Shown here: positions 4,415 to 43,625 of the stretch, piece by piece
Position numbering within the stretch: position 1 is the first letter of the stretch
Layout of the letters: each line of letters starts with the position of its first letter
Source: a virus
Strand: one strand, 5' to 3'
Virus record (IMG/VR): IMGVR_UViG_3300022668_000023
Location: 1 to 43,625 of that record
DNA: 43,625 bases
Notes under the pieces: generated by a model
Database searches by the model: none
Told to the model about the DNA's origin: nothing
What the model saw: only the letters and a program-made list of their open reading frames with translations
Program-made: the position numbers and the translations under genes

Positions 4415-4624
4415 ATGGAATCAGAAACAATTAAGTATTTAAGAAAGCTTCCTGAGAATAGCCACAAAAAAGTCTATCTTAAATTAGATGATAGGGTTTT
4501 GAAATGTGAATTCATGTGTTTCAGAGGCATTAATTTTATTAAATTAAGATCCTTTGATGATAGCATTATAAGCGTACCTATTTGTATTTGGCACAAAATT
4601 ACCTTAGATGAACCAGACAACTAA
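4415..4624 (+). CDS. Hypothetical 69-aa protein
   Basis: No family recognised. The sequence is mixed alpha/beta with alternating hydrophobic positions (KVYLKLDDRVLKCEFMCF, then INFIKLRSFDDSIISVPI), suggesting a small beta-barrel-like or SH3-like fold. The ATG is preceded by an A-rich leader. Its 3' end overlaps the next gene by 17 bases, so the two are translated together. Confidence 0.5.
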   Translation: MESETIKYLRKLPENSHKKVYLKLDDRVLKCEFMCFRGINFIKLRSFDDSIISVPICIWHKITLDEPDN

Positions 4625-5228
4625 AAAAGCACTTAAAGCTCTACTAGCGAGTATCGCAACATTCGTAATGGTAATGTTTTTAATATACATACTTGCATCT
4701 TTAATTGGGATGTTAACCGCCCAAAGTAAGCGTGCGGAGGGTATAAATTTAATTACAATGGGATTGGAAAAATACGAGGGCGATATGTTCACTTTTGCAG
4801 AAGAATTCACTTCAATAGTTAGGGACGGCGTTGTTTATTTGGAAGAATATGGAGAGGGGGAATTCCCTTTAATGCATATAAAAACAGAAGATCAGTATTT
4901 AATACTTTATGAGATATTAACAGGTGAAAAACACCCAGCACCTACGCTCAAAAAATTGCAACATATTAATTTAAAAATCATGGACAAATTTTTAATAACA
5001 GCTAAGGAACTTAAAAATCAAGTTGAAAAACTTAATTTAATCGCTGATGCTGTTGGCTCATTTGAGCTAAAAATGAAGCTTACAACAGATAGTATTAATG
5101 GTTTTCCGGGCCAATACTTCCCGGAGCTGAAAGCAAAATGGATGCACGATTTGGTAATTTACAACATGGCCCGTATGAGAATGCTATCTATTTATCAAAA
5201 AGAACTTGAAAGGTTGCCGAAATATTAG
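4608..5228 (+). CDS. Hypothetical membrane-anchored protein
   Basis: 206 aa. Residues about 12-36 (LLASIATFVMVMFLIYILAS) form one clear transmembrane helix after a short Lys-rich N-terminus. The rest is soluble and mostly helical, with the segment KKLQHINLKIMDKFLITAKE, so a cytoplasmic or periplasmic helical domain on a single anchor is expected. No family recognised. It overlaps the 69-aa gene and its 3' end contains the -33 element of the promoter for the RNA at 5241-5352. Confidence 0.5.
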   Translation: MNQTTKKALKALLASIATFVMVMFLIYILASLIGMLTAQSKRAEGINLITMGLEKYEGDMFTFAEEFTSIVRDGVVYLEEYGEGEFPLMHIKTEDQYLILYEILTGEKHPAPTLKKLQHINLKIMDKFLITAKELKNQVEKLNLIADAVGSFELKMKLTTDSINGFPGQYFPELKAKWMHDLVIYNMARMRMLSIYQKELERLPKY

Positions 5229-5236
5229 TATATTTG
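5206..5236 (+). promoter_or_regulatory. Bacteroidota-type promoter for the 5.24 kb RNA
   Basis: TTG (5206-5208), a 20-base spacer and TATATTTG (5229-5236) give a full match to the TTG-N20-TAnnTTTG consensus. The start site is expected 4-6 bases downstream, at about 5241, exactly where the 11-base 5' arm GTCGAAACGTA begins. The -33 box lies inside the end of the upstream coding region. Confidence 0.7.
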
Positions 5237-5240
5237 TTTT

Positions 5241-5352
5241 GTCGAAACGTATTAAACAACTCCCTAAATGATAGAAAATAATTCACATACATAGCTTTTA
5301 AACACAATTACCCGAGGTACGTTTCGACAACGTGGGGAGCCTCGGGTTTTTG
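5241..5352 (+). ncRNA. Probable structured small RNA or leader with possible pseudoknot
   Basis: About 110 nt between a consensus promoter and an intrinsic terminator, with no ORF of any size. GTCGAAACGTA (5241-5251) pairs perfectly with TACGTTTCGAC (5318-5328). CCCGAGG (5311-5317) pairs with CCTCGGG (5340-5346). The order is 5' arm A, 5' arm B, 3' arm A, 3' arm B, so both helices together would make an H-type pseudoknot, with B5' directly abutting A3'. A third possible pair is CTCCC (5260-5264) with GGGAG (5335-5339). It could be a free sRNA or an attenuating leader for the gene at 5388. Confidence 0.55.
5310..5351 (+). terminator. Intrinsic terminator at the end of the small RNA
   Basis: ACCCGAGG (5310-5317) and CCTCGGGT (5340-5347) form an 8-bp stem with a 22-nt loop, followed by TTTTTG TTTTT. 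The loop contains the 3' arm of the upstream 11-bp helix (5318-5328). Formation of that helix could therefore affect whether this terminator forms, giving a possible read-through switch for the replication genes downstream. Confidence 0.65.
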
Positions 5353-5387
5353 TTTTTAGGAGCTTTTTTAGTTTAAATACGGAACGT

Positions 5388-5894
5388 ATGAATTTTTTAG
5401 AAAAAGATTTGGAAGAAATCATCTATAAATCTGATAAGGAGTTGCTTCAGAAAAAAGGATTACCAATTTATGGTAAATTACTAAGACAATTAAGAATAGG
5501 CAATTACGGGACAGCCGATATAGTAGAGGTTGACAGGTCGTATATTGACGGGGCTAATAGTATATATCCGTACTTAAAAATAACAGTATACGAGCTTAAA
5601 AAAGATAAAATAGGCATTAGTGCTTTCTTACAGGCTGTTAGATATGTAAAGGGCATTAAAAAATACATAGAAAAAAGAGGAATTAATAGTTATTCATTAC
5701 ATATAACATTAATAGGCAAGGATTTAGATTTAAATTCTTCTTTCTGTTATCTACCAGATATACTTAATGATTATTGTAGCGAGTTTGGTGAAAACTTCTT
5801 ATCAAATTACACATATAAATATGGAATTAATGGGCTTGAATTTAATGATGAATTAAATTATTCATTAACAAATGAAGGGTTTAAAAATGAATAG
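5388..5894 (+). CDS. PD-(D/E)XK-like nuclease-fold protein
   Basis: 168 aa. The order of motifs is that of a PD-(D/E)XK core: an N-terminal helix with E at about 5-10 (EKDLEEII), GTADIVEVDR with D near 45, a strand with YELKK near 69-73 (the ExK half), then a helix AFLQAVRYVKGI containing the Q...Y/R pattern common in restriction-fold and Holliday-resolvase-like enzymes. It begins the replication module after the small RNA and overlaps the initiator-like gene by 8 bases (ATGAATAG). Substrate unknown; a phage recombination or anti-host nuclease role is possible. Confidence 0.6.
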   Translation: MNFLEKDLEEIIYKSDKELLQKKGLPIYGKLLRQLRIGNYGTADIVEVDRSYIDGANSIYPYLKITVYELKKDKIGISAFLQAVRYVKGIKKYIEKRGINSYSLHITLIGKDLDLNSSFCYLPDILNDYCSEFGENFLSNYTYKYGINGLEFNDELNYSLTNEGFKNE

Positions 5895-6738
5895 CTATGA
5901 ATTATCTAGGTGTTGGTTTGACTACTGCTTTGAGAACCCAGAAAAAATAAACCCTTCTCATTCGGCTATTTATTTATTTGCTATAGAGCATTGCAATAGA
6001 TTAGGATGGAAGAGAAAATTCGGATTTCCTTCTCAAATGACAATGGACGCATTAGGTATAAAAAAACATCAAACTTATATTAGGTATTTTAACGATTTGG
6101 TTGATTGGGGGTTTTTTACATTAATTCAGAAGTCAAAAAACCAATATTCAGCTAATATTATATCAATAAACGCCCCTACAAAAAACGGCAAAGCACTAGA
6201 CAAAGCATTCATAACCCATGCGACAAAGCAAACAGAATCCAAGGGGCAAAGCACAGGGCAAAGCACAGGGCAAAGCATAGGGCAAAGCATAGGGCAAAGC
6301 ATAGACAGTATAATTAAACAATTAAACAAGGAACAATTAAACAAAGAACAAATAGAGCGTTTAGAAAAAATTATTTCTAAAAATCAAAAAGAAAATATAC
6401 CCGCTTTTGATGAGTTTAAAAATCATGCTATATCAAAAGAGCCTTTTATTGATTTAAAGGCTTTACGAAACAAGTATGATTCATGGATTGAAAACGATTG
6501 GAAGGATGGTAATAATAAGGCAATAAAAAATTGGAAATCAAAGCTATCTAACACTATCACGTATATTCCTAAAACTGATAAGAAAAACGTAATAACAAAT
6601 AACAAGTTAAAAAAATACTTTGTAAAGAGTAGGTTTAACGTATCAAAAGATTTCTTTGCAGAATCAGAAGAACAGGCAAAAGATATGTATTGCAAAAATT
6701 ATGGAGTTACCATTGAAGACATAACAGAATGCAGCTAA
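5887..6738 (+). CDS. Replication initiator-like protein with internal iteron block
   Basis: 283 aa from the ATG at 5887, chosen because it gives an 8-base ATGAATAG overlap with the upstream stop; an ATG at 5872 is also possible. Residues about 1-100 look like a winged helix: CWFDYCFENPEKINPSHSAI, FPSQMTMDALGI, then YFNDLVDWGFF followed by a beta wing. The middle is a GQSTGQS/GQSIGQS repeat (about 118-140) followed by a Glu/Lys helix. The C-terminal third carries a DnaD/primosome-like 'NDWKDGNNKAIKNWKSKLSN' segment. Phage initiators of this layout bind origin repeats in their own gene and load the helicase encoded just downstream. It overlaps the primase-helicase gene by 10 bases. Confidence 0.65.
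   Translation: MNSYELSRCWFDYCFENPEKINPSHSAIYLFAIEHCNRLGWKRKFGFPSQMTMDALGIKKHQTYIRYFNDLVDWGFFTLIQKSKNQYSANIISINAPTKNGKALDKAFITHATKQTESKGQSTGQSTGQSIGQSIGQSIDSIIKQLNKEQLNKEQIERLEKIISKNQKENIPAFDEFKNHAISKEPFIDLKALRNKYDSWIENDWKDGNNKAIKNWKSKLSNTITYIPKTDKKNVITNNKLKKYFVKSRFNVSKDFFAESEEQAKDMYCKNYGVTIEDITECS
6244..6348 (+). repeat. Iteron-like tandem repeats and AT-rich repeats, candidate replication origin
   Basis: Five tandem 12-bp units GGGCAAAGCAyA run from 6244 to 6303 (two with C, three with T at the variable place). Directly after come AT-rich direct repeats: CAATTAAACAAGGAA (6319-6333) and CAATTAAACAAAGAA (6334-6348), with a further overlapping AATTAAACAA at 6312. Iterons plus an AT-rich unwinding block inside an initiator gene are the layout of lambda-type origins. 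The block also encodes the Gly-Gln-Ser repeat, so some constraint may be at protein level. Confidence 0.6.
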
Positions 6739-8012
6739 ACGGGTTTCAAATAGAGAGATACAATGTTCACAACATACCAGAGGGTGTTAAATATTATACT
6801 TGCCCCTTGTGTAGTGCTGAAAGAAAAAAGAAAACACAAAAATGTTTATCTGTCTTTTGGGATACAGGAATAGCAAAATGCTCCCACTGTGGCGAAGTAG
6901 TTCAATTACATAGTTTTAAACGAAAATCAAACTCAAATAATTATAAAATACCAGTTTGGAAAAACAGCACAAAACTAAGTGATGATGTTGTTAAGTGGTT
7001 TGAAAAAAGAAAAATAAGCCAATTTGTGTTAAGGCTTATGAAAATTGGCGAAGGTTTGGAAAGCATGCCCCACAAAGGGGAGTGGAAAAAGAAAAATACT
7101 ATTCAATTTCCTTATTTCAGAAATGGCCAAATAGTTGATGTTAAATACAGGTCAGGAGACAAAAACTTTAAATTATTCAAAGAGGCTGAGAGAATTACAT
7201 ATAATCTTGACAATATTCAAAGTCAAGAAATAATATACTGTGTCGAAGGTGAGCCAGATGTTTTGGCTGTTATGGAATGTGGTATTCATAATGTTTGCAG
7301 TCCTCCAAATGGGTTTACCGCAAAAGGCAATGTTAATTTAGATTGGTTGAATAATGATGTCGAGCATTTTGTAAAAGCTAAAAAACTAATACTTGCTTTT
7401 GATAATGACACACCCGGTGATAACGGCAAGAAAGAATTTATTAGAAGATTTGGAGGACATAAATGTTATGTGGTTGATCTTAAGGATTGCAAAGACTCAA
7501 ATGATTTTTTAATAAAATACGGATCTGATGAATTAAAAAAAGCCTTAGAAAACCATATAGAGCTACCTTTAGAGAATGTAAGCACTTACAACGACTGCAA
7601 AGAAAAAGTCCGGGATTTCTTTTTAAATGGTATGCCAAGGGGGTTAATTACAGGCAACCTAGGAGGTTTAGATGAAAATTTCAGCACTAATACATCGCAA
7701 ACAATATTAGTGACGGGAATTCCATCATGTTTTACTGCTAATCAAAAAATAATTACCTGCGATGGAGTCAAAAAAATATCAAAATTAAAAAAAGGAGATA
7801 AAGTTCTTTCTTATAATGAAAACAAGAAGTTAAATGAATATAATGCAGTTGTTAATGCCTTAGTAAATAAAAATACTAATGATAAGATATACAGGTTAAC
7901 CATGAAGGATGGAACAATAATAGAATGTACTGAAAACCATAGGTTTTATAATGGAACATCGTATGTGAAAATCAAAGAATTATTATTATCTTTAGACAAA
8001 TTTAATTTATAG
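6729..8012 (+). CDS. Primase-helicase N-terminal half fused to split-intein N-part
   Basis: 427 aa: N-extein 1-333, IntN 334-427. The extein has a zinc finger with C25, C28, C51 and C54, and a TOPRIM domain with CVEGEPD (E173) and LAFDND (D225, D227). It stops in the Walker A loop at ILVTGIPS. IntN begins with the nucleophile C334, has the block A 'GVKKISKLKKGDKVLSYN' and the block B TENH (T401, H404), then TAG. The missing half of the P-loop, SGKSE, starts the C-extein in the gene at 8534. After trans-splicing the product would read GIPSSGKS, a complete Walker A, in a T7 gp4/Twinkle-like primase-helicase. Neither half alone has a full ATPase site. Confidence 0.85.
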   Translation: MQLNGFQIERYNVHNIPEGVKYYTCPLCSAERKKKTQKCLSVFWDTGIAKCSHCGEVVQLHSFKRKSNSNNYKIPVWKNSTKLSDDVVKWFEKRKISQFVLRLMKIGEGLESMPHKGEWKKKNTIQFPYFRNGQIVDVKYRSGDKNFKLFKEAERITYNLDNIQSQEIIYCVEGEPDVLAVMECGIHNVCSPPNGFTAKGNVNLDWLNNDVEHFVKAKKLILAFDNDTPGDNGKKEFIRRFGGHKCYVVDLKDCKDSNDFLIKYGSDELKKALENHIELPLENVSTYNDCKEKVRDFFLNGMPRGLITGNLGGLDENFSTNTSQTILVTGIPSCFTANQKIITCDGVKKISKLKKGDKVLSYNENKKLNEYNAVVNALVNKNTNDKIYRLTMKDGTIIECTENHRFYNGTSYVKIKELLLSLDKFNL

Positions 8013-8015
8013 GTC

Positions 8016-8552
8016 ATGAAGACATGGAAGAAAATACCTGATTACAGATTATATGAAGCGTCAACAGATGGCGAGCTAAAAACATTTAATTGGAAGAATA
8101 CAGGTTTAGAAAGAATTATTAAGCCGGCTTTAGATAATTGTGGCTATTTACGGACAATGCTAAAAGATGATTCAGGAAATACACGCACTATTAAGGTTCA
8201 TAGAATTATAGCAAAAACATTCATTCCAAATCCAAATAATAAACCTCAAGTTAACCATATTAACGGGGTCAAGTATGACAATAGAGTTGATAACTTGGAA
8301 TGGTGTACAGCGTCAGAAAATTTAAAACACTCCTATAAAATAGGATTATCATCAGTAAAAGGGGAATTAAATCCAGCAACAAAGCTAACTGATAAAGAGG
8401 TTTTAGAGATTCGTTCTAAATATACATATGGTAGGCTAGGAGGTAGAGTTAAAGGAGCTACAACAAAACCTATGCTAGCTAAAGAATATGGGGTTAAAGT
8501 GCATGTTATTAAACAAATAGTGAGAGGCAAGACATGGAAGCATCTGTTATAG
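8016..8552 (+). CDS. HNH homing endonuclease (NUMOD4-HNH) inserted between intein halves
   Basis: 178 aa. It starts with a NUMOD4-like segment (WKKIPDYRLYEASTDGELKT), followed by the HNH core with VHRIIAKTFI, QVNHINGVKYDNR (N80, H81), VDNLEW and ENLKHS. The C-terminus has a NUMOD1-like DNA-binding helix ending GKTWKHLL. Such enzymes make site-specific breaks that lead to their own spread. It lies exactly between IntN and IntC. It is in the same frame as IntN, separated only by TAG-GTC, but has a full-length N-terminus of its own, so it is most likely a free-standing enzyme. The last 19 bases overlap the IntC gene. Confidence 0.85.
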   Translation: MKTWKKIPDYRLYEASTDGELKTFNWKNTGLERIIKPALDNCGYLRTMLKDDSGNTRTIKVHRIIAKTFIPNPNNKPQVNHINGVKYDNRVDNLEWCTASENLKHSYKIGLSSVKGELNPATKLTDKEVLEIRSKYTYGRLGGRVKGATTKPMLAKEYGVKVHVIKQIVRGKTWKHLL

Positions 8553-9502
8553 ACATTAAAGACATTAAAAGCGTTGAGATTATAGAAAACCAACATGTGT
8601 ATGATATAGAGGTTGAGAATAATCACAATTTTTATTTAAGTACAAACACAGATAAAATACTGGTACATAACTCTGGCAAAAGCGAGGTTGTAGACCAAAT
8701 GGTCTTAGGTTATGCTTTGAAAAGTGGCTATAAAACAGCATTTGCAAGCGTGGAAAATAAACCTAATCACTTACATCACCAAAAATTAGTACGCAAGCTT
8801 TCAGGCATAGCACCAACTAAAGAGAGCCATTTTAATAAATCATTTGAATTATGCGAGGATTTTGTGCAGAATAATTTTTACATGATCGATTTAGAAAATG
8901 GTTATGACTTGGAGCGAGTATTACTCAAGGCTGAAGAGCTTGTATTTAGGAAAGGAATAAGAATACTAGTTTTAGATCCATTCAATAAAATAAAGTTTAA
9001 AGGAGATGTTGAAAGTATCTCAGGCAATAGGACGAATGATTATACGAATAAGTATTTAGAGCTTATAAATGATTTTGCAACTAAATATGATGTTTTAGTC
9101 ATATTGGTAGCTCATCCTGTTAAAATGAATAAATTGGATAACGGGAAACGAGCCGTACCAGATTTCTATGATGTCAAAGGAGGGGGAGAATTTTATGACA
9201 TGTGCCATCATGGTTTAGTTGTTTCGCGTAATTATGATTTTGAATTAACTTTAATTAGAACTTTAAAAGTAAAATTTGCCCACTTAGGGGAAAATAATAA
9301 AGATTCATGGTTTAAGTACAATATTAATAATGGCCGTCTATCTGATGCGGTTGGTGATCCAGAAAGTGCTGAGGGAGTAATTATTGAATTTGATAACGAA
9401 AATTGGGTCACTCAAGATGAAATTTCAGACATTTCAATAAATAATGATTTAGAATCCAATGCTAATGATTGGATTGAGCCACAAACAAAAGTACCGTTTT
9501 AA
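8534..9502 (+). CDS. Split-intein C-part fused to DnaB-like helicase C-terminal half
   Basis: 322 aa: IntC 1-46, C-extein 47-322. IntC has the block F/G pattern 'VYDIEVENNHNFYL...ILVHN' with H45 and N46, and the splice acceptor S47. The extein begins SGKSE, the second half of a Walker A, and continues as a RecA-fold helicase: AFASVENKP, Walker B RILVLDPFNK, and ILVAHPVK as motif H3. The only in-frame ATG after the upstream stop (TAA at 8510) is 8534, so the start is fixed inside the last codons of the HNH gene. The N-extein and IntN are in the gene at 6729. The mature replicative helicase needs trans-splicing. Confidence 0.85.
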   Translation: MEASVIDIKDIKSVEIIENQHVYDIEVENNHNFYLSTNTDKILVHNSGKSEVVDQMVLGYALKSGYKTAFASVENKPNHLHHQKLVRKLSGIAPTKESHFNKSFELCEDFVQNNFYMIDLENGYDLERVLLKAEELVFRKGIRILVLDPFNKIKFKGDVESISGNRTNDYTNKYLELINDFATKYDVLVILVAHPVKMNKLDNGKRAVPDFYDVKGGGEFYDMCHHGLVVSRNYDFELTLIRTLKVKFAHLGENNKDSWFKYNINNGRLSDAVGDPESAEGVIIEFDNENWVTQDEISDISINNDLESNANDWIEPQTKVPF

Positions 9503-9963
9503 TGGAGAAAATAGGCGAATTAATACAAAAAGCAAGAGATAAGGCTGCGAATGAAAGTTATTATCACAGAACATCTAAAGAAACTTTAGGAAAGTGGTTT
9601 GATGAATCACCTGATATATTTGGTATCGAAAATCCAATATCAATAAGATATGAAGAACACGCCTGTACAAATGGAATAGTCTTTTTTGTTCCTGACGTTT
9701 GTATTTATTCAACTACTGGACTCTCTGCCATATTTGAGGTAGTTCATACAAATAACATCTCAAATAGAAAAATTGAGTTGATGAGTTTATATTTTTCCTT
9801 AATGGGTATTAATCCATCTGTTTTCGAAATATCTACTCATTGGATATTAAAGCAAACTAAAACACCTTCCTATTTACTCTGTAATAGCGCCATATTGAAC
9901 ACCAAACCTAAAAGTAATACAAATACACAACTCAAAATAGATCGTTCAAATAAACTATCTTAA
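9502..9963 (+). CDS. Hypothetical protein with nuclease-like core
   Basis: 153 aa. Around residues 60-95 the pattern FFVPDVCIY...LSAIFEVVHTN..S..KIELM..YF resembles the PD...(D/E)xx core of PD-(D/E)XK or CoiA-like proteins: PD on one strand, E on the next, then a helix. The last position is H rather than K, so activity is uncertain. The start ATG overlaps the helicase stop by one base (TAATG). The C-terminus (about 130-153) is polar and probably disordered. Confidence 0.5.
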   Translation: MEKIGELIQKARDKAANESYYHRTSKETLGKWFDESPDIFGIENPISIRYEEHACTNGIVFFVPDVCIYSTTGLSAIFEVVHTNNISNRKIELMSLYFSLMGINPSVFEISTHWILKQTKTPSYLLCNSAILNTKPKSNTNTQLKIDRSNKLS

Positions 9964-9964
9964 A

Positions 9965-10501
9965 ATGACAAATCAAGGTTTCTTAATTCTGCTAATTATT
10001 TTAATAATCTTATACGCTCTATTAACCTATTTACACTTAAAAAATGAAAAAGAAATGAACACTATTGAAACCAAATTACCCCTGGCGTTATTCAAAGAAA
10101 GCAAACAGGAGGTCTTGACGCTTATTCAAAAAATGATTGACAACTCCTACTCCATAAGCATACAACCACACTTTTTAAAGCCTAGTAATAGGATTAAGGC
10201 AGGAATCAAAACATTTATTTGTGATTGTCCTACAGGGTTAATGTCCTTCGATCGTATTTGTCCAGACACATGCATATTTCAGCATTTGAAAAATTGCAGT
10301 AAAATGTATTTTATTCCTAATGATGAGGCCCGGAATAGTTACGAGACTGCTAATAGATTTCTAAATGATCTTATGTATTTATTGCGAAATTTACCCGAAT
10401 TTTGCTTTGCTAATGAGTACAGATCTGAGCTATTCTATTTTATTGACACTTACGACAAAGCATTCAAGAAAAAACAACTTAAAAACAAAATAAATGGTTA
10501 A
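9965..10501 (+). CDS. Hypothetical single-pass membrane protein, Cys-containing
   Basis: 178 aa. Residues about 5-24 form one transmembrane helix (FLILLIILIILYALLTYL). The soluble part has a cluster of five Cys at about 89-114 (CDC, then CPDTC and C), which could bind metal or form disulfides. The C-terminus is Lys-rich. No family recognised. It follows the nuclease-like gene by one base and overlaps the next small ORF by 8 bases. Confidence 0.5.
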   Translation: MTNQGFLILLIILIILYALLTYLHLKNEKEMNTIETKLPLALFKESKQEVLTLIQKMIDNSYSISIQPHFLKPSNRIKAGIKTFICDCPTGLMSFDRICPDTCIFQHLKNCSKMYFIPNDEARNSYETANRFLNDLMYLLRNLPEFCFANEYRSELFYFIDTYDKAFKKKQLKNKING

Positions 10502-10658
10502 CCTAAAAAAATGCAAGGGCTTTGATAAGCCTATCTGTAATTGTTGCGCAAGGCTCGACAAAAATGAAAAAGACACTCTGATAAAAGAGTTATACTATAG
10601 CAGTATAACAAAACATGAGTGTTGTGAAAATCATATTTATAAACGATTAAAAAGGTAG
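10494..10658 (+). CDS. Small Cys-rich protein, 54 aa
   Basis: ATG at 10494 overlaps the end of the preceding gene. The protein has C7, then CNCC at 15-18 and CC at 43-44, a spacing that could form a small zinc site. The rest is Lys-rich. The tight overlap with its upstream neighbour and the gap of only 4 bases to the next gene support that it is translated. Function unknown. Confidence 0.45.
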   Translation: MVNLKKCKGFDKPICNCCARLDKNEKDTLIKELYYSSITKHECCENHIYKRLKR

Positions 10659-10662
10659 AAAA

Positions 10663-10848
10663 ATGAAAAAATTTATAACGGCAATAATGTGTATAATATT
10701 TTTGTCATTTATTTATTTAACTACTTACATGTACGACACTATAGAGGGTTCTGTTGCTAGAGAATTATTTTCAATTGTACTTGGTATAGTTTTTTTTATT
10801 CTAAGTGTGATTATTTTTCCTATTCGTGAATATGATAGGCATATGTAA
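10663..10848 (+). CDS. Small two-helix membrane protein
   Basis: 61 aa with two hydrophobic segments (about 4-24 and 34-54) joined by a short acidic loop (YDTIEGSVAREL). A two-pass inner membrane topology is expected. It lies in the accessory stretch between replication and the Rha-like gene and is too early in the map to be an obvious holin. No family recognised. Confidence 0.45.
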   Translation: MKKFITAIMCIIFLSFIYLTTYMYDTIEGSVARELFSIVLGIVFFILSVIIFPIREYDRHM

Positions 10849-10896
10849 CCTTTTCTACTTACCTGCGTATATATCAATAAACTAAACAATACAACC

Positions 10897-11112
10897 ATGG
10901 ACGCAATAGACCAATTAATAGAGAGGAATGATATACTGCAAAGTATAGATTTAATTAGTATATTTTCAGAAAAAGGAATGCTCAAAGAGCTAAAAGAATA
11001 CAGAGATAGAATAATACCACTAGGCTTAACAATAGATCAAATAGATATTGGAAGCCAGTTGATATATGAGAGATCAAACAAGGCCATTGCTTTGATGGAA
11101 AAGTGCTCTTAG
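10897..11112 (+). CDS. Hypothetical helical 71-aa protein
   Basis: All-helical acidic protein with no recognised family (IDQLIERNDILQSIDLISIF near the start). It has its own 48-base upstream gap and is followed by a strong terminator at 11134-11165, so it is the last gene of the transcript from the replication module. Confidence 0.45.
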   Translation: MDAIDQLIERNDILQSIDLISIFSEKGMLKELKEYRDRIIPLGLTIDQIDIGSQLIYERSNKAIALMEKCS

Positions 11113-11133
11113 TTTTTTGGTTCTAAGATGCCA

Positions 11134-11165
11134 CCCCGATGCTTAATTGTATCGGGGGTTTTTGT
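11134..11165 (+). terminator. Intrinsic terminator
   Basis: CCCCGAT (11134-11140), loop GCTTAATTGT, ATCGGGG (11151-11157) make a perfect 7-bp stem followed by GTTTTTG. It separates the replication transcript from the Rha-like gene. Confidence 0.8.
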
Positions 11166-11206
11166 TTATTATAAATAATATATAGCACTATTGTAAAATA
11201 ATGTTG

Positions 11207-11214
11207 TATATTTA
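11207..11214 (+). promoter_or_regulatory. -7-like element four bases before the Rha-like start
   Basis: TATATTTA matches TAnnTTTG except for the last base and ends 4 bases before the ATG at 11219. No TTG lies at the preferred -33 distance. If used, the mRNA would be leaderless. It comes just after a terminator, where a new promoter is expected. Confidence 0.4.
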
Positions 11215-11218
11215 CATT

Positions 11219-11929
11219 ATGAAAACAGATATTGTTCATATAAATAAAAAGGAAGTTTATACAACGTCTAAAATAATTGCTGAAATGTTAGGTGTTGTTC
11301 ATAAGGATCTATTAAGAACTATAGATGTAATTGTTTTAAGGCAGAAAAACAATGGGCTGGCCAGCCCATTGAAATTCCCTCAAAAGTTCATTGAGACAAA
11401 GTTTACAAATAAGATGAACCGAACATTTAAAATGTATGAGTTGAATGAACAAGCTTATATGAAGCTTGCAATGCATTTAAAAGGATATGAGAAAGCCGAA
11501 AAAGTGCAAGATTCAATTATTGAGGCTTTTTCTTTAATGAAGCAAGCTCTTTTAAATCATCAAAATGCAACTTGGTTAAGTGCGCGCGAGCATGGAATTA
11601 AAACTAGATTAGTTGAAGCGGATATGATTAAGTTGTTTGTTGATTATGCGACTAATCAAGGTAGTAAAAATGCTAAGTTCTATTATTCAAACATTACAAA
11701 GATGACTAATAAAGCCCTGGAGCTACTCGTTCAAGTAAAAGAGGGTAAACCTTTAAGGGATTTAGCAACAGTTCAAGAATTAGGGTTTATTAGCGTTGTA
11801 GAAAATCGAGCCGTTCAGGCATTAGAATATGGAATGAGTGAAAAACTTCCTTATAAATATATTTACAAAGAAGCAAAAGAGCAGGTTAATAACCTTGTTG
11901 ATAGTTTATGTTTTAAGCCGATCAAGTAA
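11219..11929 (+). CDS. rha: Rha-family phage regulatory protein
   Basis: 236 aa from the ATG at 11219; an ATG at 11201 would add six residues but would lie upstream of the -7-like box. Residues about 1-95 are a Rha (pRha) domain: EVYTTSKIIAEMLGVVHKDLLR, then KNGLASP, and NRTFKMYELNEQAYMKLAMH. The C-terminal half is helical, as in antirepressor-type proteins. Rha proteins occur in temperate phages and interfere with growth in some hosts; antirepressor-like regulation is the usual assumption. It stands alone between a terminator and the repeat-protein gene. Confidence 0.8.
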   Translation: MKTDIVHINKKEVYTTSKIIAEMLGVVHKDLLRTIDVIVLRQKNNGLASPLKFPQKFIETKFTNKMNRTFKMYELNEQAYMKLAMHLKGYEKAEKVQDSIIEAFSLMKQALLNHQNATWLSAREHGIKTRLVEADMIKLFVDYATNQGSKNAKFYYSNITKMTNKALELLVQVKEGKPLRDLATVQELGFISVVENRAVQALEYGMSEKLPYKYIYKEAKEQVNNLVDSLCFKPIK

Positions 11930-11965
11930 ACGAGATAGTGAAACGATATTTTAAAAATAAGAAGC

Positions 11966-12676
11966 ATGAAGACTAAAACTATATACGGAATCGAATACAA
12001 AGTAATTGATTTCAAGGAAGGTAGAGATATCATTTTCCCTAATGATAATATTTATTTGGAGGCAAATTTAATTGTCACAGGTTCGATAGAATGTAAAAAT
12101 CTATATATTAAAGGCGACCAGATAGTTAAAGGCGACCAGATAGTTAAAGGCTCCCAGAGAGTTAAAGGCTCCCAGAGAGTTAAAGGCTCCCAGATAGTTG
12201 AAGGCTCCCAGATAGTTGAAAGCTACCAGAGAGTTAAAGGCGACCAGAGAGTTGAAGGCGACCAGAGAGTTGAAGGCTCCCAGATAGTTAAAGGCGACCA
12301 GAGAGTTGAAGGCTCCCAGAGAGTTGAAGGCTCCCAGATAGTTAAAGGCGACCAGATAGTTGAAGGCTCCCAGATAGTTGAAAGCTACCAGATAGTTGAA
12401 GGCGACCAGAGAGTTGAAGGCGACCAGAGAGTTAAAGGCGTTTTAATTAATTCATATTGTAAATGGCGAATTGTAGTCTATATTAAGACTATAAAAATAG
12501 GATGCAAAGAGAAAACTACTTATGAATGGATTGATTTTTTTGGTAAGAATGAAACATTTGAAACTAATGTGGAATCAAAGGAGTATGCTTTAATCAAGTC
12601 GTCTTTCAATATGGCTATTCAGGCTCAGAAGCATTTAATTTTAATGAATAAGAAGAATGGAAGCAAAACATCTTAA
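11966..12676 (+). CDS. Hexapeptide-repeat protein, predicted left-handed beta-helix
   Basis: 236 aa. Residues 47-154 are 18 tandem hexads of the form [I/R]-V-[K/E]-G-[D/S]-Q, then a partial one. A six-residue period with a hydrophobic residue at a fixed place is the period of a left-handed beta-helix, where three hexads make a turn; 18 hexads would give six turns. The N-terminus (1-46) and C-terminus (155-236, with KTTYEWIDFFGKNETFETNV) are unique. A structural or surface role, or a decoy fold like pentapeptide-repeat DNA mimics, is possible. The near-identical DNA repeats mark recent expansion. Confidence 0.6.
   Translation: MKTKTIYGIEYKVIDFKEGRDIIFPNDNIYLEANLIVTGSIECKNLYIKGDQIVKGDQIVKGSQRVKGSQRVKGSQIVEGSQIVESYQRVKGDQRVEGDQRVEGSQIVKGDQRVEGSQRVEGSQIVKGDQIVEGSQIVESYQIVEGDQRVEGDQRVKGVLINSYCKWRIVVYIKTIKIGCKEKTTYEWIDFFGKNETFETNVESKEYALIKSSFNMAIQAQKHLILMNKKNGSKTS
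12104..12439 (+). repeat. 18-bp tandem minisatellite inside a coding region
   Basis: Eighteen and two-thirds units of 18 bp, based on rTAGTTrAAGGCkmCCAG with few variants. The unit length is in frame, so copy number changes keep the reading frame. Variants occur in blocks (for example the AGCTACCAG unit appears twice, nine units apart), which points to unequal crossing-over or slippage. Confidence 0.9.
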
Positions 12677-12679
12677 GTG

Positions 12680-13117
12680 ATGGATATCCTAATAAACTCT
12701 GAAGATAAAAAGACAAAAGCAATAGATCATATTGCAGCTTTAGATTTAAGTTATTCGTATCGAATAAAAATAGCTAAGGTAGTTAAAAAGCGAACATTAA
12801 CGCAAAACAGGGCCCTGCATTTATTCTTCAAGCATATGGCAATACATTTAAACAGCATCGGGCAAAACTTTCATTTTTCAGGGATAAAGGGATTGGATTT
12901 AGAAATACCGTACAACGAGATTTTAGTAAAAGAAACGATTTGGAAACCTATTCAAAAAACAATGTTTGAAATAGACAGCACTACTGATTTAGATACATTT
13001 ATGATTAATAAGATATTAGATGTTTTGACTCATTTTTTTGCACGAAATAACATTCAGTTAAATTTCCCTTCTAACATTGAACTTTTAATTAAGCAATTAA
13101 ATGAAAATGAAATTTAA
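12680..13117 (+). CDS. NinB-like recombination protein
   Basis: 145 aa from the ATG at 12680; a GTG at 12677 is possible. The segment KKRTLTQNRALHLFFKHMAI (about 36-56) matches the 'R..~QN...~~~~l~~ia' signature of NinB-like proteins, followed by a region with GLDLEIPYNEILVKETIWKP and a helical C-terminus. NinB (Orf) binds single-stranded DNA and helps RecBCD/RecF-type steps to be bypassed. Nearby RusA-like and HNH-like genes make this a nin-like segment. The assignment is by pattern and context. Confidence 0.5.
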   Translation: MDILINSEDKKTKAIDHIAALDLSYSYRIKIAKVVKKRTLTQNRALHLFFKHMAIHLNSIGQNFHFSGIKGLDLEIPYNEILVKETIWKPIQKTMFEIDSTTDLDTFMINKILDVLTHFFARNNIQLNFPSNIELLIKQLNENEI

Positions 13118-38782: not shown

Positions 38783-39399
38783 GCAAAGCAATAATATTAG
38801 ACCCTCCACACGGGAAAAATACCCCTGGGAAAAGATCGCCAGACGGCAAGCATAGAGAATGCTTTTGGGGCCGGAAGCGTATTATTAAAGTGGTTAATAA
38901 TATCCTTAAATCAAAAGAGAGTTCAGACATATACTATCCTTTTGTTTACGAAGAGAACGAGCCGGGCCTTACTAACAGGGTATTAAAATACAATTCTATT
39001 GCGAAGGATTACGATGAAACCTTAGTAATTAGCCTTCATAATGACGCAGAAAATCCAAAAACTTGTGATATTAACGGCTGGGGCAAAGCAAATGGGGCTG
39101 CGGTATGGACTTCTAAAGGTCAAGATGCATCAGACGAGTACGCAACCAATTGGTTTAACTACTTTCATGCCAGATACCCGAACCAAAAATTTAGGCAAGC
39201 AAAATGGGAGGGTAACGACCCGGATTACGAAGCCAATTTTACAATTTTAGCAGGGAATTCAAAAGTTAAGCCTTTATATAATGCTATTCTGATAGAATGG
39301 CTATTCCAGACTAATAAAAGCGATGTTGAAAAGCTTATGAATGATAAGCACAACGAGTATTTTGAAGACATGTTAACTAATTGGATTTTGACATTATGA
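38779..39399 (+). CDS. N-acetylmuramoyl-L-alanine amidase (endolysin)
   Basis: 206 aa, Amidase_3 fold. Zinc ligands are readable: H11 in ILDPPHGKNTPG, E27 in HRECFWGRK, H87 in LVISLHNDA. The catalytic Glu is in ILIEWLFQTN near residue 174. The enzyme cuts the amide between N-acetylmuramate and L-alanine in peptidoglycan at the end of infection. There is no signal peptide, so it needs a holin. Overlaps the next gene by ATGA. Confidence 0.85.
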   Translation: MSKAIILDPPHGKNTPGKRSPDGKHRECFWGRKRIIKVVNNILKSKESSDIYYPFVYEENEPGLTNRVLKYNSIAKDYDETLVISLHNDAENPKTCDINGWGKANGAAVWTSKGQDASDEYATNWFNYFHARYPNQKFRQAKWEGNDPDYEANFTILAGNSKVKPLYNAILIEWLFQTNKSDVEKLMNDKHNEYFEDMLTNWILTL

Positions 39400-40342: not shown

Positions 40343-40369
40343 AAGGGGTCTTAGCGGGCCCCTTTTTTT
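40343..40369 (+). terminator. Intrinsic terminator closing the phage gene block
   Basis: AAGGGG (40343-40348) and CCCCTT (40359-40364), with a 10-base loop, are followed by TTTTTG (the T run is seven long, starting inside the stem). It ends the lysis transcript and lies about 70 bases before the first element of the cassette-like region. Confidence 0.8.
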
Positions 40370-40401
40370 GCCTTAAAAGTATTAAAAAGCAATAAAAAGT
40401 A

Positions 40402-40430: not shown

Positions 40431-40483
40431 GGGGTGTTTAAATACTGAACTTAATTAAATGTGAAACTATTAAAAACTGCGTG

Positions 40484-40756
40484 ATGGCAAAAATAGAGCA
40501 AGATTTAGAACAGGCTAAGAAAGTAAAAAATATGTTCCTTATCTATTTTGATGGATGCTATGGAATAGATTCAGTTGAAAATACCTCTAACACCTTTGCA
40601 ATGGGAGTTTGCAAATTAGAATACAAAGACGATAAATTAACGATACACCTTAGAAGACCAGGACTATTAATTGGCAAAGGTGGGTGCATAATAGACGCAC
40701 TACAAAAACACTTAGATTGCAAAATAGATATTGTTGAAGTGAACCTCCTTAAATGA
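40484..40756 (+). CDS. KH-domain RNA-binding protein (cassette 1)
   Basis: 90 aa from the ATG at 40484; a GTG at 40481 is directly before it. The C-terminal 40 residues hold a KH motif: HLRRPGLLIGKGGCIIDALQ, with GKGG at 64-67 as the GxxG loop, then a helix and the strand IDIVEV. This resembles the S3/NusA type-II KH core. The N-terminus (about 1-45) is helical then beta. KH domains bind single-stranded RNA or DNA. The gene ends exactly where the first att-like core (40757) begins, so the cassette is one gene long. Confidence 0.7.
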   Translation: MAKIEQDLEQAKKVKNMFLIYFDGCYGIDSVENTSNTFAMGVCKLEYKDDKLTIHLRRPGLLIGKGGCIIDALQKHLDCKIDIVEVNLLK

Positions 40757-40819
40757 GGCTTAACGGATGGTTGTATGATTTCGTTGCTTTTCGCAATGAA
40801 TTATACAACGTGTTAGCTG
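40757..40819 (+). repeat. attC-like site 1
   Basis: Outer left core GGCTTAAC (40757-40764), spacer GGATG, left arm GTTGTAT (40770-40776), hairpin centre with TTTTC as loop, right arm ATACAAC (40803-40809), GT, outer right core GTTAGCTG (40812-40819). The inner 17-bp stem (40770-40809) has one bulge and G-T pairs. The left spacer has 5 bases and the right 2, an asymmetry like that of attC. The core fits GTTRRRY only at its first four bases. Confidence 0.7.
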
Positions 40820-40934
40820 ACTGTATGGGCGATTTGAACCCGCTAAAGCCTATTTGAAACACTACAGTAGTATTTATTTTTTTGTGTGTTGGCAAAATAA
40901 TTTTGAAAAAATTACATTTATTTTAGTATTGCTA

Positions 40935-40976
40935 TTGTATATACGAAAAATAAATGTATATTTGTATATACAAAAA
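40935..40976 (+). promoter_or_regulatory. Cassette promoter with two GTATATAC operators
   Basis: TTG (40935-40937), 19-base spacer, TATATTTG (40957-40964): a full consensus. A direct repeat TTGTATATAC is found at 40935-40944 and 40962-40971, each followed by an A-rich run. Each contains the perfect 8-bp palindrome GTATATAC (40937-40944 and 40964-40971). One copy covers the -33 region and the other the end of the -7 box, so a dimeric repressor would shut the promoter. Confidence 0.7.
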
Positions 40977-40993
40977 CGGTAAAACATACAGAT

Positions 40994-41158
40994 ATGATTG
41001 ATTATAGCAAATACAACGAGACAAATAAAACGGTAACTTTTACAAACGGTAAAACTTTTAAGGTTTATTCAAAAGAAACTAAAAGCGGAGTAAGATATTT
41101 TTATTGTTCTCCTTCAAATTTTAGAATGATGCCAGTTTCAAAAAACGACATTAAATAA
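40994..41158 (+). CDS. Small protein of cassette 2, 54 aa
   Basis: First gene after the cassette promoter. Beta-rich and basic (KYNETNKTVTFTNGKTFKVY, then RYFYCSPSNFRMMPV). Its stop overlaps the next ATG (TAATG). No family recognised. Confidence 0.5.
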   Translation: MIDYSKYNETNKTVTFTNGKTFKVYSKETKSGVRYFYCSPSNFRMMPVSKNDIK

Positions 41159-41385
41159 TGGATGCGCAAATGATAGAAAGTCAGTATAATAAAATGCTGG
41201 CTTTTAGTTACGGAAATGTAGATAGTTTAATACGCCAACTAAATAAAAGTATTAAGCTTTATAAGAATGCTAAAAACCCAAACCACCCTAAAGTAAAATA
41301 TAGAATTGAATTATATACTAAAATTATAGAACATGGGAACACCTGTAGAAATTTTAAAACACCAATTGGAATTGATAAAACATAG
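41158..41385 (+). CDS. Small helical protein of cassette 2, 75 aa
   Basis: Basic and helical (DSLIRQLNKSIKLYKNAKNP, then KYRIELYTKIIEHG). It overlaps the next gene by 53 bases, an unusually long overlap; the downstream start at 41333 is the only ATG that keeps a long frame. No family recognised. Confidence 0.4.
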   Translation: MDAQMIESQYNKMLAFSYGNVDSLIRQLNKSIKLYKNAKNPNHPKVKYRIELYTKIIEHGNTCRNFKTPIGIDKT

Positions 41386-41623
41386 ATTGCACATTGGTAA
41401 GGTTATGAGCCATAATAAACCAGAGGTAAAGAAATTAATCCTTGAATATGATGCTGCTATAAACATTTTAACAAGCGAGAAAGAATGTGTTGAGCATGAG
41501 TTTACTTACTTGAGAAATCATTTAAAACGCTTTATGAGATGGCAAGAAAACCAAGACATTGAACAATTCGATGACCAACCAGCAACTATAACAAGATACT
41601 TAAATATTATTAGAGATGAGTAA
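41333..41623 (+). CDS. Hypothetical helical protein of cassette 2, 96 aa
   Basis: Helical and charged (PVEILKHQLELIKHRLHIGK, then EYDAAINILTSEKECVEHEF). It overlaps its upstream neighbour by 53 bases and its downstream one by 8. A trimming of the start to ATG 41405 is possible and would remove the overlap with the 75-aa gene. No family recognised. Confidence 0.5.
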   Translation: MGTPVEILKHQLELIKHRLHIGKVMSHNKPEVKKLILEYDAAINILTSEKECVEHEFTYLRNHLKRFMRWQENQDIEQFDDQPATITRYLNIIRDE

Positions 41624-41786
41624 AGATAAAGAATTATTAATGCCACAAATGATAAGGATAACAGCAAGCTTAAAAGACCTTGTAAAAACCTCTGCCGATA
41701 AACACAACGAAGGCAATTTTAACCGTGAAGTACGTGATTTAATCCAAATCGGTTTGAAAAACCGAAAGAGGGGAGAAAAAAAATAA
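41616..41786 (+). CDS. Ribbon-helix-helix-like regulator of cassette 2, 56 aa
   Basis: Residues about 11-50 fit an Arc/MetJ-type ribbon-helix-helix: a strand IRITASL followed by a helix KDLVKTSADKH and a second helix NFNREVRDLIQIGLK. Such proteins bind short palindromes as dimers, often to control their own operon. The GTATATAC sites in the same cassette's promoter are a natural target. This and the four-gene layout resemble a small self-regulated module; toxin-antitoxin function is not shown. Confidence 0.6.
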   Translation: MSKDKELLMPQMIRITASLKDLVKTSADKHNEGNFNREVRDLIQIGLKNRKRGEKK

Positions 41787-41839
41787 ATACGGGCTTATAG
41801 TACTGACTTTGATTAAATACACAAACATAGCCCATATTG

Positions 41840-41909
41840 CAGCTAACGATGGTTATAAGATTAAGCGTAGCGACCCCTTTTCGGGGTTAATTTTATAACG
41901 TGTTACCTA
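41840..41909 (+). repeat. attC-like site 2
   Basis: Left core CAGCTAAC (41840-41847), spacer GATG, left arm GTTATAA (41852-41858), inner pair ACCCC (41873-41877) with GGGGT (41883-41887), right arm TTATAAC (41893-41899), GT, right core GTTACCTA (41902-41909). The left core is the exact complement of GTTAGCTG at the front of the same cassette (40812). One side carries a bulge (about 8 bases), as in folded attC sites. Confidence 0.75.
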
Positions 41910-41954
41910 CTGGCGTTTACACTGAATTTAATTTAAAACATAAAGCTAAATAAA

Positions 41955-42332
41955 ATGAATATTGACGACTTATTTAAAATTGATACAACCGAAGAATCTG
42001 CTCCACAAATGACTATTAAAGAGTTTGTAGAAAAAACAAGAGCCATACTAAAGAAAATAGATAGCGAATACGGAGTTGCGAACCAATGGAATATGGTTGA
42101 AGATGAAGAACACGAACAGCAAGATTGCGAAAACTGCAAGGGTGAATGTACAATAAATCGCAACGGTAGAGAACTGCAATGCCAGCCAGATAAATCAGAA
42201 GGCGAATGTTTTGTGCTTGAATTTGCACACGAATCATTTGTGGAGGAATTAGAAAACATAATGTTCCATGATGAGAAATATTCATTTTATGAATTATTAG
42301 GCTGCGAAATTACCAACGAAGAGCAAAAGTAA
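41955..42332 (+). CDS. Acidic Cys-containing hypothetical protein (cassette 3)
   Basis: 125 aa, acidic. The centre has DCENCKGEC (about 56-64) with further Cys at about 76 and 85, a possible metal-binding cluster. Helices flank it (TIKEFVEKTRAILKKIDSEY near the start; SFVEELENIMFHDEKYSFYE near the end). No family recognised. It ends 12 bases before the next core, so it is the whole cassette content. Confidence 0.5.
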   Translation: MNIDDLFKIDTTEESAPQMTIKEFVEKTRAILKKIDSEYGVANQWNMVEDEEHEQQDCENCKGECTINRNGRELQCQPDKSEGECFVLEFAHESFVEELENIMFHDEKYSFYELLGCEITNEEQK

Positions 42333-42344
42333 ATTACGCTTGTT

Positions 42345-42474
42345 GGTAACGAAAAAGTATATGCGGTCGGTTGCGATTAGATGCACGACTGACCAAGTAT
42401 AGAAAGACTTAAATAAATGAACAATAGTAACAAATACAGACAAACCGCAACTGCCGTATATACGGTGTTGTGTG
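42345..42474 (+). repeat. attC-like site 3 (long form)
   Basis: Left core GGTAAC (42345-42350), spacer GAAAAA, left arm GTATATGCGG (42357-42366) and GTTGCG (42370-42375), a loop of about 70 bases, CGCAAC (42446-42451), right arm CCGTATATAC (42454-42463), GGT, right core GTTGTGTG (42467-42474). At 130 bases it is about twice the other sites. The large loop holds a short open stretch but no convincing gene. GGTAAC complements GTTACC at the front of the same cassette (41902). Confidence 0.75.
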
Positions 42475-42491
42475 TCTTTTAAAAAAGGGAT

Positions 42492-43130
42492 ATGCACAGA
42501 CCTACAATAGAATTACATAATGTTGACTGCTTGCCTTTTATGCGTGGGTGTGTGGACAAACAATTTGATTTAGCAATAGTAGACCCTCCTTATGGGATAA
42601 ATAGGGGCGGACAACCTGAAACATTTACAAAGAATCCGAAACATAAACGCAAAGAGCATAAGCAAAAAGACTGGGATAAAAACCGCCCCGATGCTGAATA
42701 CTGGAATGAACTATTTAGAATATCGAAACATCAAATTGTTTGGGGGGCTAACTATTTCACGGGCTATTTGCCACCGAGCATGGGGTGGGTGTTTTGGGAT
42801 AAAGGACAAGATTTAAGTATGAGTGACGGTGAATTAGCTTATACCTCATTTGAAAAAGCGTTGCGGAGGGTTATAATAAACAGGGCTGAAATAATGAAAG
42901 ACGGCGCAATACACCCGACACAGAAGCCCGTGAAACTTTACAAATGGTTACTAACTAAATATGCAACTGCAGGAATGACAATATTTGACAGCCATTTAGG
43001 TGCGGGGGGCATAGGGATTGCGTGCCATGACTTAGGCTATGATTTAACCGCATGTGAAATTGATAAAGAGTATTTTGAAAAGGCAAGCAACCGCATAAAG
43101 TTACATCAGCGGCAGTTATCCCTTTTTTAA
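42492..43130 (+). CDS. DNA adenine/cytosine-N4 methyltransferase (cassette 4)
   Basis: 212 aa. Catalytic motif DPPYG (31-35), then IHPTQKPVKLYKWLL (motif X-like) and the SAM-binding block TIFDSHLGAGGIGIACHDLG with CEID. The order (catalytic motif first, SAM motif later) is that of the beta-type N6-adenine/N4-cytosine enzymes. No restriction partner is in the same cassette. It is small but complete. It ends 3 bases before the next core. Solitary methyltransferases are used by phages and mobile elements against restriction. Confidence 0.8.
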   Translation: MHRPTIELHNVDCLPFMRGCVDKQFDLAIVDPPYGINRGGQPETFTKNPKHKRKEHKQKDWDKNRPDAEYWNELFRISKHQIVWGANYFTGYLPPSMGWVFWDKGQDLSMSDGELAYTSFEKALRRVIINRAEIMKDGAIHPTQKPVKLYKWLLTKYATAGMTIFDSHLGAGGIGIACHDLGYDLTACEIDKEYFEKASNRIKLHQRQLSLF

Positions 43131-43133
43131 TTG

Positions 43134-43167
43134 CACACAACGGGATTCGGGTATGATGCGTTGTTTG
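43134..43167 (+). repeat. attC-like site 4, degenerate
   Basis: Left core CACACAAC (43134-43141) is the exact complement of GTTGTGTG at the front of the same cassette (42467). The right core is best read as GTTGTTTG (43160-43167), with 7 of 8 bases complementary to the left core. The inner 18 bases do not form a good stem, so the site looks truncated. A longer hairpin GGGTA (43148-43152)/TACCC (43174-43178) is an alternative. Confidence 0.45.
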
Positions 43168-43222
43168 TTGAATTACCCACAGAAGTAAATGCGAGAACAT
43201 AAAATAACAAATACTATAAGCG

Positions 43223-43525
43223 ATGGCAAAAGATAATGAATACCCATACAAGCATAAACACGTAGCTATAAAGCACGGACATGCTACATTTTACGGAGAT
43301 ACAGAACCGAGCAAAGAACTATTAGAAGCCCTAAATAAAATGGCTGAACTTGCATACGAGCAGTGCGGTGGGGTGAAGGTTGACACGGGAGAAAACAATG
43401 CATTATTACCCGATGTTAGCTTTGCGAAGCGAAAGGTTTGCCGATGCTACGAAGTGCCACCGAAGAAAGATTTTGAAAAGTGCGATACTTGTGGAAAACC
43501 ATACCAATATATTCGGCAAACTTAA
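43223..43525 (+). CDS. Zinc-ribbon-like hypothetical protein (cassette 5)
   Basis: 100 aa. The C-terminus has CRCYEVP followed by FEKCDTCGKPYQYIRQ (Cys pairs near 73/75 and 89/92), a likely zinc ribbon. The N-terminal half is His/Lys-rich (YPYKHKHVAIKHGHATFY) then a helix ELLEALNKMAELAYEQCGG. No family recognised. It begins the last visible cassette. Confidence 0.5.
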   Translation: MAKDNEYPYKHKHVAIKHGHATFYGDTEPSKELLEALNKMAELAYEQCGGVKVDTGENNALLPDVSFAKRKVCRCYEVPPKKDFEKCDTCGKPYQYIRQT

Positions 43526-43565
43526 AGCTAACTAGTAGATACCTGTACCTAAAAAATTGCAACTC

Positions 43566-43625
43566 ATGAACAGCCTATTAACAAAGGAAGAAAAAGAACG
43601 TACTGCAAAACTTTGCAAGGAAAAT
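43566..43625 (+). CDS. Partial gene running off the window
   Basis: ATG at 43566 opens a frame that is still open at the end (20 codons, charged: LTKEEKERTAKLCKEN). It may be the next cassette gene. The 40-base gap before it contains AGCTAAC (43530-43536), which has the AAC ending of the left cores but no visible partner within the window. Confidence 0.35.
   Translation, partial: MNSLLTKEEKERTAKLCKEN

Follow-up and report, generated by a model that had tools for sequence, protein, structure and literature searches.

An integron-like gene cassette array in a contractile-tailed phage

Known cassette systems and the array in the window

Integrons are known as bacterial platforms that combine an integrase (IntI) with its attI site and with attC sites, and the IntI crossover takes place at G|TT. 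Here we describe an array of small gene cassettes near the 3' end of the IMG/VR virus record IMGVR_UViG_3300022668_000023, the entire length of which (43,625 bases) constitutes the window analyzed here. The record comes from a contractile-tailed phage, with PHROGs matches to terminase, portal, head protease, tail sheath and tape measure proteins. Its four consecutive cassettes, at positions 40765-43532, very probably belong to an integron-like recombination system carried by the phage, the recombinase of this system being predicted in the window phage itself. The array is genuine and resembles integrons in how it works, and by the tests applied here it lies outside integrons in the strict sense with respect to both IntI and the orientation of the cargo.

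Several features are shared by integrons and the phage arrays, namely the one in the window and those of its relatives with the same type of site, in most of which the array ends at a tyrosine recombinase gene. In both, the front core of a cassette is complementary to its own end core, the sites are palindromic and of variable length, the crossover appears to fall within AAC/GTT, attI lies at the 5' end of the recombinase gene, and the insertion end of the array is beside the recombinase; the modeled fold of the phage recombinase also appears closest to that of IntI4. In contrast, the phage recombinases score under the IntI cut-off, fall outside the IntI clade and are devoid of the IntI insert; the phage cargo is on the recombinase strand, whereas that of integrons is on the opposite one; the core arms span 8-11 bases, with GTT[A/G] followed by variable letters rather than GTTRRRY; and the sites have uneven spacers, commonly 4-7 and 1-4, and an attI of their own, AAC|TATNATATATA. 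In terms of the features that define integrons, an array of complementary cores is present in the window and its relatives, an attI beside the recombinase is present in the relatives and represented by an attI-like match in the window, and both an IntI with its specific insert and cargo opposite to the integrase are absent.

Among described systems, the closest on phages are the clusters of attC sites lacking integron integrases (CALINs). According to the main text of Qi et al. 2023 (PMC9892861), 17 attC clusters are found on phages, P12002L and TJE1 among them, and include methyltransferase cassettes like those discussed below; IntI1 used five of the six phage sites tested, including one of two from P12002L. 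The arrays of P12002L, in which published pipelines had predicted attC sites, are also in our site list. An earlier note on this DNA, made from the sequence alone, had regarded cassette arrays on phages and in Bacteroidota as unusual, but the 2023 clusters mean that such arrays, including those on Bacteroidota phages such as P12002L, were already known. The arrays reported in that main text differ from the present ones in being either integrase-free or part of known IntI integrons; neither a recombinase of the phage type nor an attI nor an exchange of cassettes among phages is described in it, and Freya, Danklef, Cellulophaga and Tenacibaculum phages go unmentioned. Likewise, the literature searched, which excluded preprints and most subscription papers, yielded the 2023 paper as the only relevant one on phage or viral integrons and contained no description of a phage-type recombinase with an attI at the end of an array, of reversed cargo, or of cassette exchange in Freya or Danklef.

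The reverse integrons of Treponema (PMC4909258) resemble the phage arrays in having integrase and cassette genes on one strand, but their attI, as inferred from the amplicons in that paper, lies 3' of intI, whereas the phage attI lies 5' of the recombinase. The XerA/XerC-like recombinases are comparable to the phage enzymes in length and include their best curated family, with the PDB entries 4a8e and 5hxy, but the phage enzymes remain below the XerA cut-off of 220 bits. To our knowledge, the dif-like sites of chromosome resolution form no cassette arrays.

Cassettes and sites of the window

All four cassettes are on the + strand and show the same order of elements, namely a hairpin, a core starting with GTT, one or more genes, and a complementary core ending in AAC. 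The front core is the exact complement of the cassette's own end core over 8, 6, 8 and 9 bases in cassettes A, B, C and D, respectively. The first three of these matches, along with the hairpins bounded by AAC and GTT, had been claimed in the earlier note and are all present in the sequence; the note had further proposed that the complementarity should continue in the next cassette, and cassette D, as well as dozens of other arrays, obeys this rule.

Cassette A (1083 bp, 40765-41847) comprises the hairpin and front core of site S1, four small open reading frames (ORFs; 40994-41158, 41158-41385, 41333-41623 and 41616-41786) and the end core CAGCTAAC. S1 (40756-40819) is composed of the end core AGGCTTAAC (40756-40764), a hairpin with the arms GTTGTATGATT/AATTATACAAC, and the front core GTTAGCTG (40812-40819), which matches CAGCTAAC (41840-41847) over 8 bases. 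Near-copies of S1 with other flanks are seen in loci L005 and L006, and comparison with relatives suggests that the limit of the cassette lies directly after AAC. Site S2 (41840-41907) joins CAGCTAAC to a hairpin (GTTATAAGATTA/TAATTTTATAAC) and the front core GTTACC; its hairpin and front core recur in nearly identical form in locus L002, where the upstream sequence is unrelated. It opens cassette B (503 bp, 41848-42350), in which the S2 hairpin is followed by an ORF (41955-42332) for a 125-aa protein without a family match and by the end core GGTAAC (42345-42350), a 6-base match to the front core at 41902. Site S3 (42345-42474), formed by GGTAAC, a hairpin (GTATATGCGGTCGG/ACTGCCGTATATAC) and the front core GTTGTGTG, similarly opens cassette C (791 bp, 42351-43141), where a DNA adenine methyltransferase gene (42492-43130) precedes the end core CACACAAC (43134-43141), which matches the front core at 42467 over 8 bases. 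The methyltransferase (PF01555, E 5e-13; phrog_67, E 1e-31) has homologues in the phages JQ and TJE1, the latter with attC sites already published.

Cassette D (391 bp, 43142-43532) contains a hairpin with the arms TCGGGTATGATGCG/GCATTATTACCCGA, the front core GTTAGCTTT at 43415, an ORF at 43223-43525, and the end core AAAGCTAAC (43524-43532), with a 9-base match between the two cores. The cassette had been overlooked in the earlier note because of the 240 bases between its hairpin arms, a loop that includes the start of the gene; the fourth hairpin counted in that note does exist, its arms being those given above and not the short ACAACG/CGTTGT. A front core within the coding sequence of the cassette gene is seen both here (43415-43532) and in L005 (3348-3561), with the core letters GTTAGCTTT common to the two, and a site so placed may shape the protein sequence in both.

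We assessed the array as a chain, i.e. as the longest run leading from a front core to a matching AAC, a hairpin and the next front core, under a relaxed rule evaluated against its own shuffles. The relaxed rule was adopted because a strict detector, requiring an 8-base match and a hairpin at most 200 nt away, recovers only one cassette in the window and none in L005. The window array attains four links with 19 matched bases beyond GTT, whereas dinucleotide shuffles gave four links in none of 200 cases and three links in one of 200, and the other 3.3-kb tiles of the window gave at most two links on either strand. The observation in the window is more than chance. Single-strand folding energy on the + strand is significant for the first hairpin only (z -3.0, as against -0.2 to -1.0 for the others), and hence the strength of the case rests on the linked rule and on the comparative data. 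An Rfam search of the array matched no family, including terminators and riboswitches.

Upstream, a terminator-like GC-rich hairpin with a T run, read directly from the + strand at about 40346-40370, lies between the lysis-side genes and the array; 3' of it are small + strand genes separated by hairpins with AAC on their left and GTT on their right. The last gene before S1 (40484-40756, + strand) encodes a probable RNA-binding KH domain, the match to which is barely above the cut-off (PF00013, E 1e-4). The left limit of 40436 given in the earlier note is unsupported, as no convincing partner precedes the first core, AGGCTTAAC; the sole 9-base match to this core, at 39265, falls within an ORF and is probably due to chance.

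Related arrays, their cassette exchange and their recombinases

A pattern derived from S1 and S2 detects near-identical sites with different flanking genes in at least four other viral contigs; three further hits (L001, L003 and L011) were rejected as chance after reading them. The likeness begins at AAC, spans the hairpin and the front core, and ends soon after, with unrelated sequence left of AAC, which implies that the hairpin moves with the gene on its right. Through the homology of S1 and S2 to the sites of L005 and L002, the window cassettes appear to have the same form as those of the Freya phages described below, with limits after AAC and the hairpin at the 5' end. In its strict version the pattern recovered no real site from 84,980 bacterial and archaeal genomes, the one hit, in a metagenome-assembled genome, being chance-like. 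The S3 type, GTATATG..TATATAC-GGT-GTT, also occurs in Tenacibaculum phage JQ and in the Polaribacter phages P12002L and P12002S. Compared with the GTTRRRY and RYYYAAC consensus, the cores of all these arrays keep GTT and AAC and often the following R, the remaining letters being variable. About eleven cassettes with 9-10 matched bases stand in a row in L002 (IMGVR_UViG_3300022689_000178, 4570-12924), a 77-kb record without a Phage_integrase match that also terminates inside its array. The lytic Polaribacter phages P12002S and P12002L (L010 and L012) contain many more sites of this family than the two examined in 2023, distributed across some 11 kb along with several methyltransferases. The Tenacibaculum finnmarkense plasmid CP116298 contains a sequence (107578-107701) that matches a site of phage JQ at 71%; no linked array was detected around it.

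Direct evidence for movement comes from relatives in which cassettes have been gained, lost or swapped, as the earlier note had proposed to look for in genes with changed neighbours. The ten Freya phages, all isolates from a single Polaribacter host, come from a paper (PMC8776804) that mentions neither integrons nor cassettes nor deletions. We compared seven of them, namely Freya_1, 2, 5, 6, 8 and 9 with Freya_10. Outside whole-cassette differences, Freya_1, 5, 8 and 9 are base-identical to Freya_10, and Freya_2 and 6 differ in a few more bases. The junctions occupy five positions of the array, every one directly after AAC, and some of the site pairs involved have only these 3 bases in common, their hairpins being different; in Freya_6, a different piece, of 469 bp, occupies the recombinase end. 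Similarly, Danklef_2 lacks one 781-bp methyltransferase cassette, precisely from AAC to AAC, that is present in Danklef_1 and 5. Metagenomic contigs with identical or 99%-identical recombinases share the same sequence up to TAAC and are unrelated beyond it (groups L124/L126/L128, L125/L129, L141/L142, L118/L123 and L130/L131), while in L124 and L127 the shared sequence extends over one more cassette, up to the following AAC. These junctions place the apparent crossover on the AAC side of the site, with the hairpin going with the gene downstream of it. The view of the earlier note that an attC-type cassette system resides on a phage is therefore supported, while the side of the crossover, the identity with IntI and the rarity on phages that it had assumed required correction.

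In L005 the array is directly followed by the gene for a 277-aa tyrosine recombinase on the same strand, and related recombinases are found beside arrays in the isolates Freya, Ingeline and Leef and in the metagenomic contigs L043, L045 and L047. A wider search with an alignment of these recombinases yielded 109 confirmed IMG/VR loci, of which 80 were kept and 61 remained after deduplication with at least 600 bases upstream. A chain of at least two linked cassettes lies upstream of the recombinase in 46 of the 61, as against one of 46 downstream controls; in 54 of the 61 a matched AAC end is present 15-130 nt, mostly 42-60 nt, before the recombinase start. The enzymes are 265-280 aa long. Their best curated NCBIfam family is XerA (NF040815), at 129-146 bits and below its cut-off, and their match to IntI (TIGR02249) reaches 92-96 bits (cut-off 265) and is mostly confined to the first 173-205 of the 315 model positions; the recombinase that the earlier note expected beside the array is thus a tyrosine recombinase in the relatives, but one below the curated IntI threshold. 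In a structure model (mean pLDDT 78) the best PDB fold match is the integron integrase 2a3v (E 1.4e-14), followed by XerA. The IntI-type insert is absent from the C-terminal half of the phage enzymes, and in a phylogenetic tree the IntI clade (support 100/99) excludes every one of them; the tree leaves undecided whether they constitute a single clade, with L005 and Leef on long branches. No comparable array was seen at the recombinases of four plasmid-borne relatives and of the Leptospira phage LE1. Two relatives on plasmids of Flagellimonas (L161) and Acinetobacter (L163) lie beside erm(F) and tet(X3), with no array ending at an attI. Four viral contigs as large as jumbo phages (L087, L114, L117 and L119; 276-362 kb) likewise combine recombinase and array.

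Aligned on their last AAC, 42 loci show the conserved AAC|TATNATATATA on the downstream side and variable sequence upstream, as is expected of a fixed insertion point. This attI-like element lies about 42-60 nt before the recombinase start, and phages with identical recombinases have different cassettes at it. In the window, the last AAC (43532) is directly followed on the + strand by the attI-like segment TAGTAGATACCTGTACCTA (43533-43551), which ranks first of 1644 AAC sites of the window against an attI consensus drawn from the phage recombinase loci, with a score of 6.6 (Freya 5.9, Leef 11.8). The record ends 93 bases past this AAC and cuts an ORF on the + strand (43566-43625) that begins 33 bases after it, as compared to mostly 42-60 in relatives. 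Given this rank and the position of the ORF, the next gene is predicted to be the recombinase, and we infer that the window phage probably encodes a Freya-type enzyme just past the end of the record.

The canonical integron L065, analyzed in the same way, served as a control. With its integrase on the + strand, it has the same order of AAC, hairpin and GTT and likewise an array upstream of the integrase, but its cassette genes are on the opposite strand, whereas 248 of 257 cassette genes in the phage arrays are on the recombinase strand. Non-Watson-Crick pairs of the hairpin arms, read on the gene strand, comprise 125 G.T against 10 A.C, with a background of 21:20. This excess fits recombination via a folded gene-sense strand; selection on the transcript is also possible.

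The majority of 70 scanned cassette proteins have no Pfam family. DNA methyltransferases are the commonest hits (six N6_N4_Mtase and two D12, plus C5 and MT-A70), those in single cassettes recurring in JQ and Danklef, and they also account for most PADLOC hits; other domains include an RNA ligase, an exoribonuclease and ADP-ribosyltransferase-like domains. A cargo rich in methyltransferases suits a role in counter-restriction, which may be its function.

Interpretation of the array

The observations can be accommodated in a mechanism in which the recombinase would recognize each site as a folded gene-sense strand and would cut within AAC, i.e. at G|TT on the other strand, as with IntI. Cassettes would leave as circles and new ones would enter at attI next to the recombinase, the array ending at a fixed attI-like site upstream of a same-strand, XerA/IntI-like tyrosine recombinase of 265-280 aa. 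As transcription crosses the array toward the recombinase, phage promoters lying upstream, rather than one at attI, probably drive the expression of the cassettes. Their products might aid the phage against host defence through methylation that counters restriction.

An alternative is that the array is an ordinary CALIN, in which cassettes of a bacterial integron, moved by the IntI of the host, ended up in a phage that lacked its own recombinase. The record as it stands, with at least two attC-type sites and no recombinase, would fit the usual CALIN definition, although it ends 93 bases past the last AAC; phage CALINs have been published, P12002L included, with one of its two tested sites recombined by IntI1 (PMC9892861, main text). 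This origin nevertheless appears unlikely, as in most relatives (albeit ones found through that very family) the array ends at a recombinase, the cassette genes are oriented opposite to those of the canonical integron, and the strict S1/S2 pattern, while finding no real site in bacterial or archaeal genomes, has a counterpart of similar form in at least four viral contigs. That the hairpins are not recombination sites at all, but terminators or RNA hairpins situated among small early phage genes and complementary by chance, would agree with their location between genes on the transcribed strand, their better folding on the sense strand and the ordinary stability of most of them in the window; the linked front/end rule beyond chance, the lack of an Rfam terminator or riboswitch match, and above all the natural junctions on AAC in Freya, Danklef and the metagenomic pairs largely refute this idea and make it extremely improbable. 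Mosaicism through homologous or illegitimate recombination at repeated hairpins would require no site-specific recombinase, and the recurrence of hairpins of the same type could supply the homology; the Danklef cassette was lost in a lineage with a broken recombinase gene. Yet junction sites share as little as the 3 bases AAC between unlike hairpins, and the same homology-free exchange point is seen in independent phages, so that this explanation is very improbable.

Certain observations weigh against a phage-encoded, integron-like system in the window. A Phage_integrase search of the record found no tyrosine recombinase, and searches with three of the proteins of the window phage found no close relatives; for want of a direct relative, cassette movement is known from other phages with the same site family. 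This absence of a recombinase from the record and of close relatives from the collections is the weakest link of the interpretation. The cut ORF supplies 20 residues for comparison with recombinase N-termini, too few to identify it. The recombinase gene is broken in Danklef_1, 5 and 2 (L048, L049 and L050) despite the clean loss of a cassette, which may reflect a recombinase acting in trans from another phage or the host, or a loss older than the break. Some phages with such sites have no neighboring recombinase of the Freya-type family, and in the Cellulophaga phage phi18:3 (L042, 7476-9511) sites of the same type are followed by a different tyrosine recombinase of 428 aa. The wobble bias could reflect selection on RNA, the gene strand being that of the transcript, and the sites counted are not independent.

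On balance, we favor, with some reservation, a broader interpretation in which the window array and the published phage CALINs belong to a phage-specific, integron-like lineage that would be widespread among Bacteroidota phages, including contigs of 250-360 kb. This lineage would possess a XerA/IntI-like recombinase and an attI of its own, with a cargo reversed relative to every described integron, and would actively exchange small counter-defence genes from one phage genome to another. If true, such a phage-encoded cassette platform would explain the fast, homology-free reshuffling of small accessory genes such as methyltransferases. The Freya and Danklef phages with their Polaribacter hosts, in which isolates differ by whole cassettes, would offer a ready laboratory system, and their recombinase, attI and sites a second natural set for the study of recombination on folded single strands. 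Reading the cassette cargo would, in turn, provide a route to new anti-defence genes.

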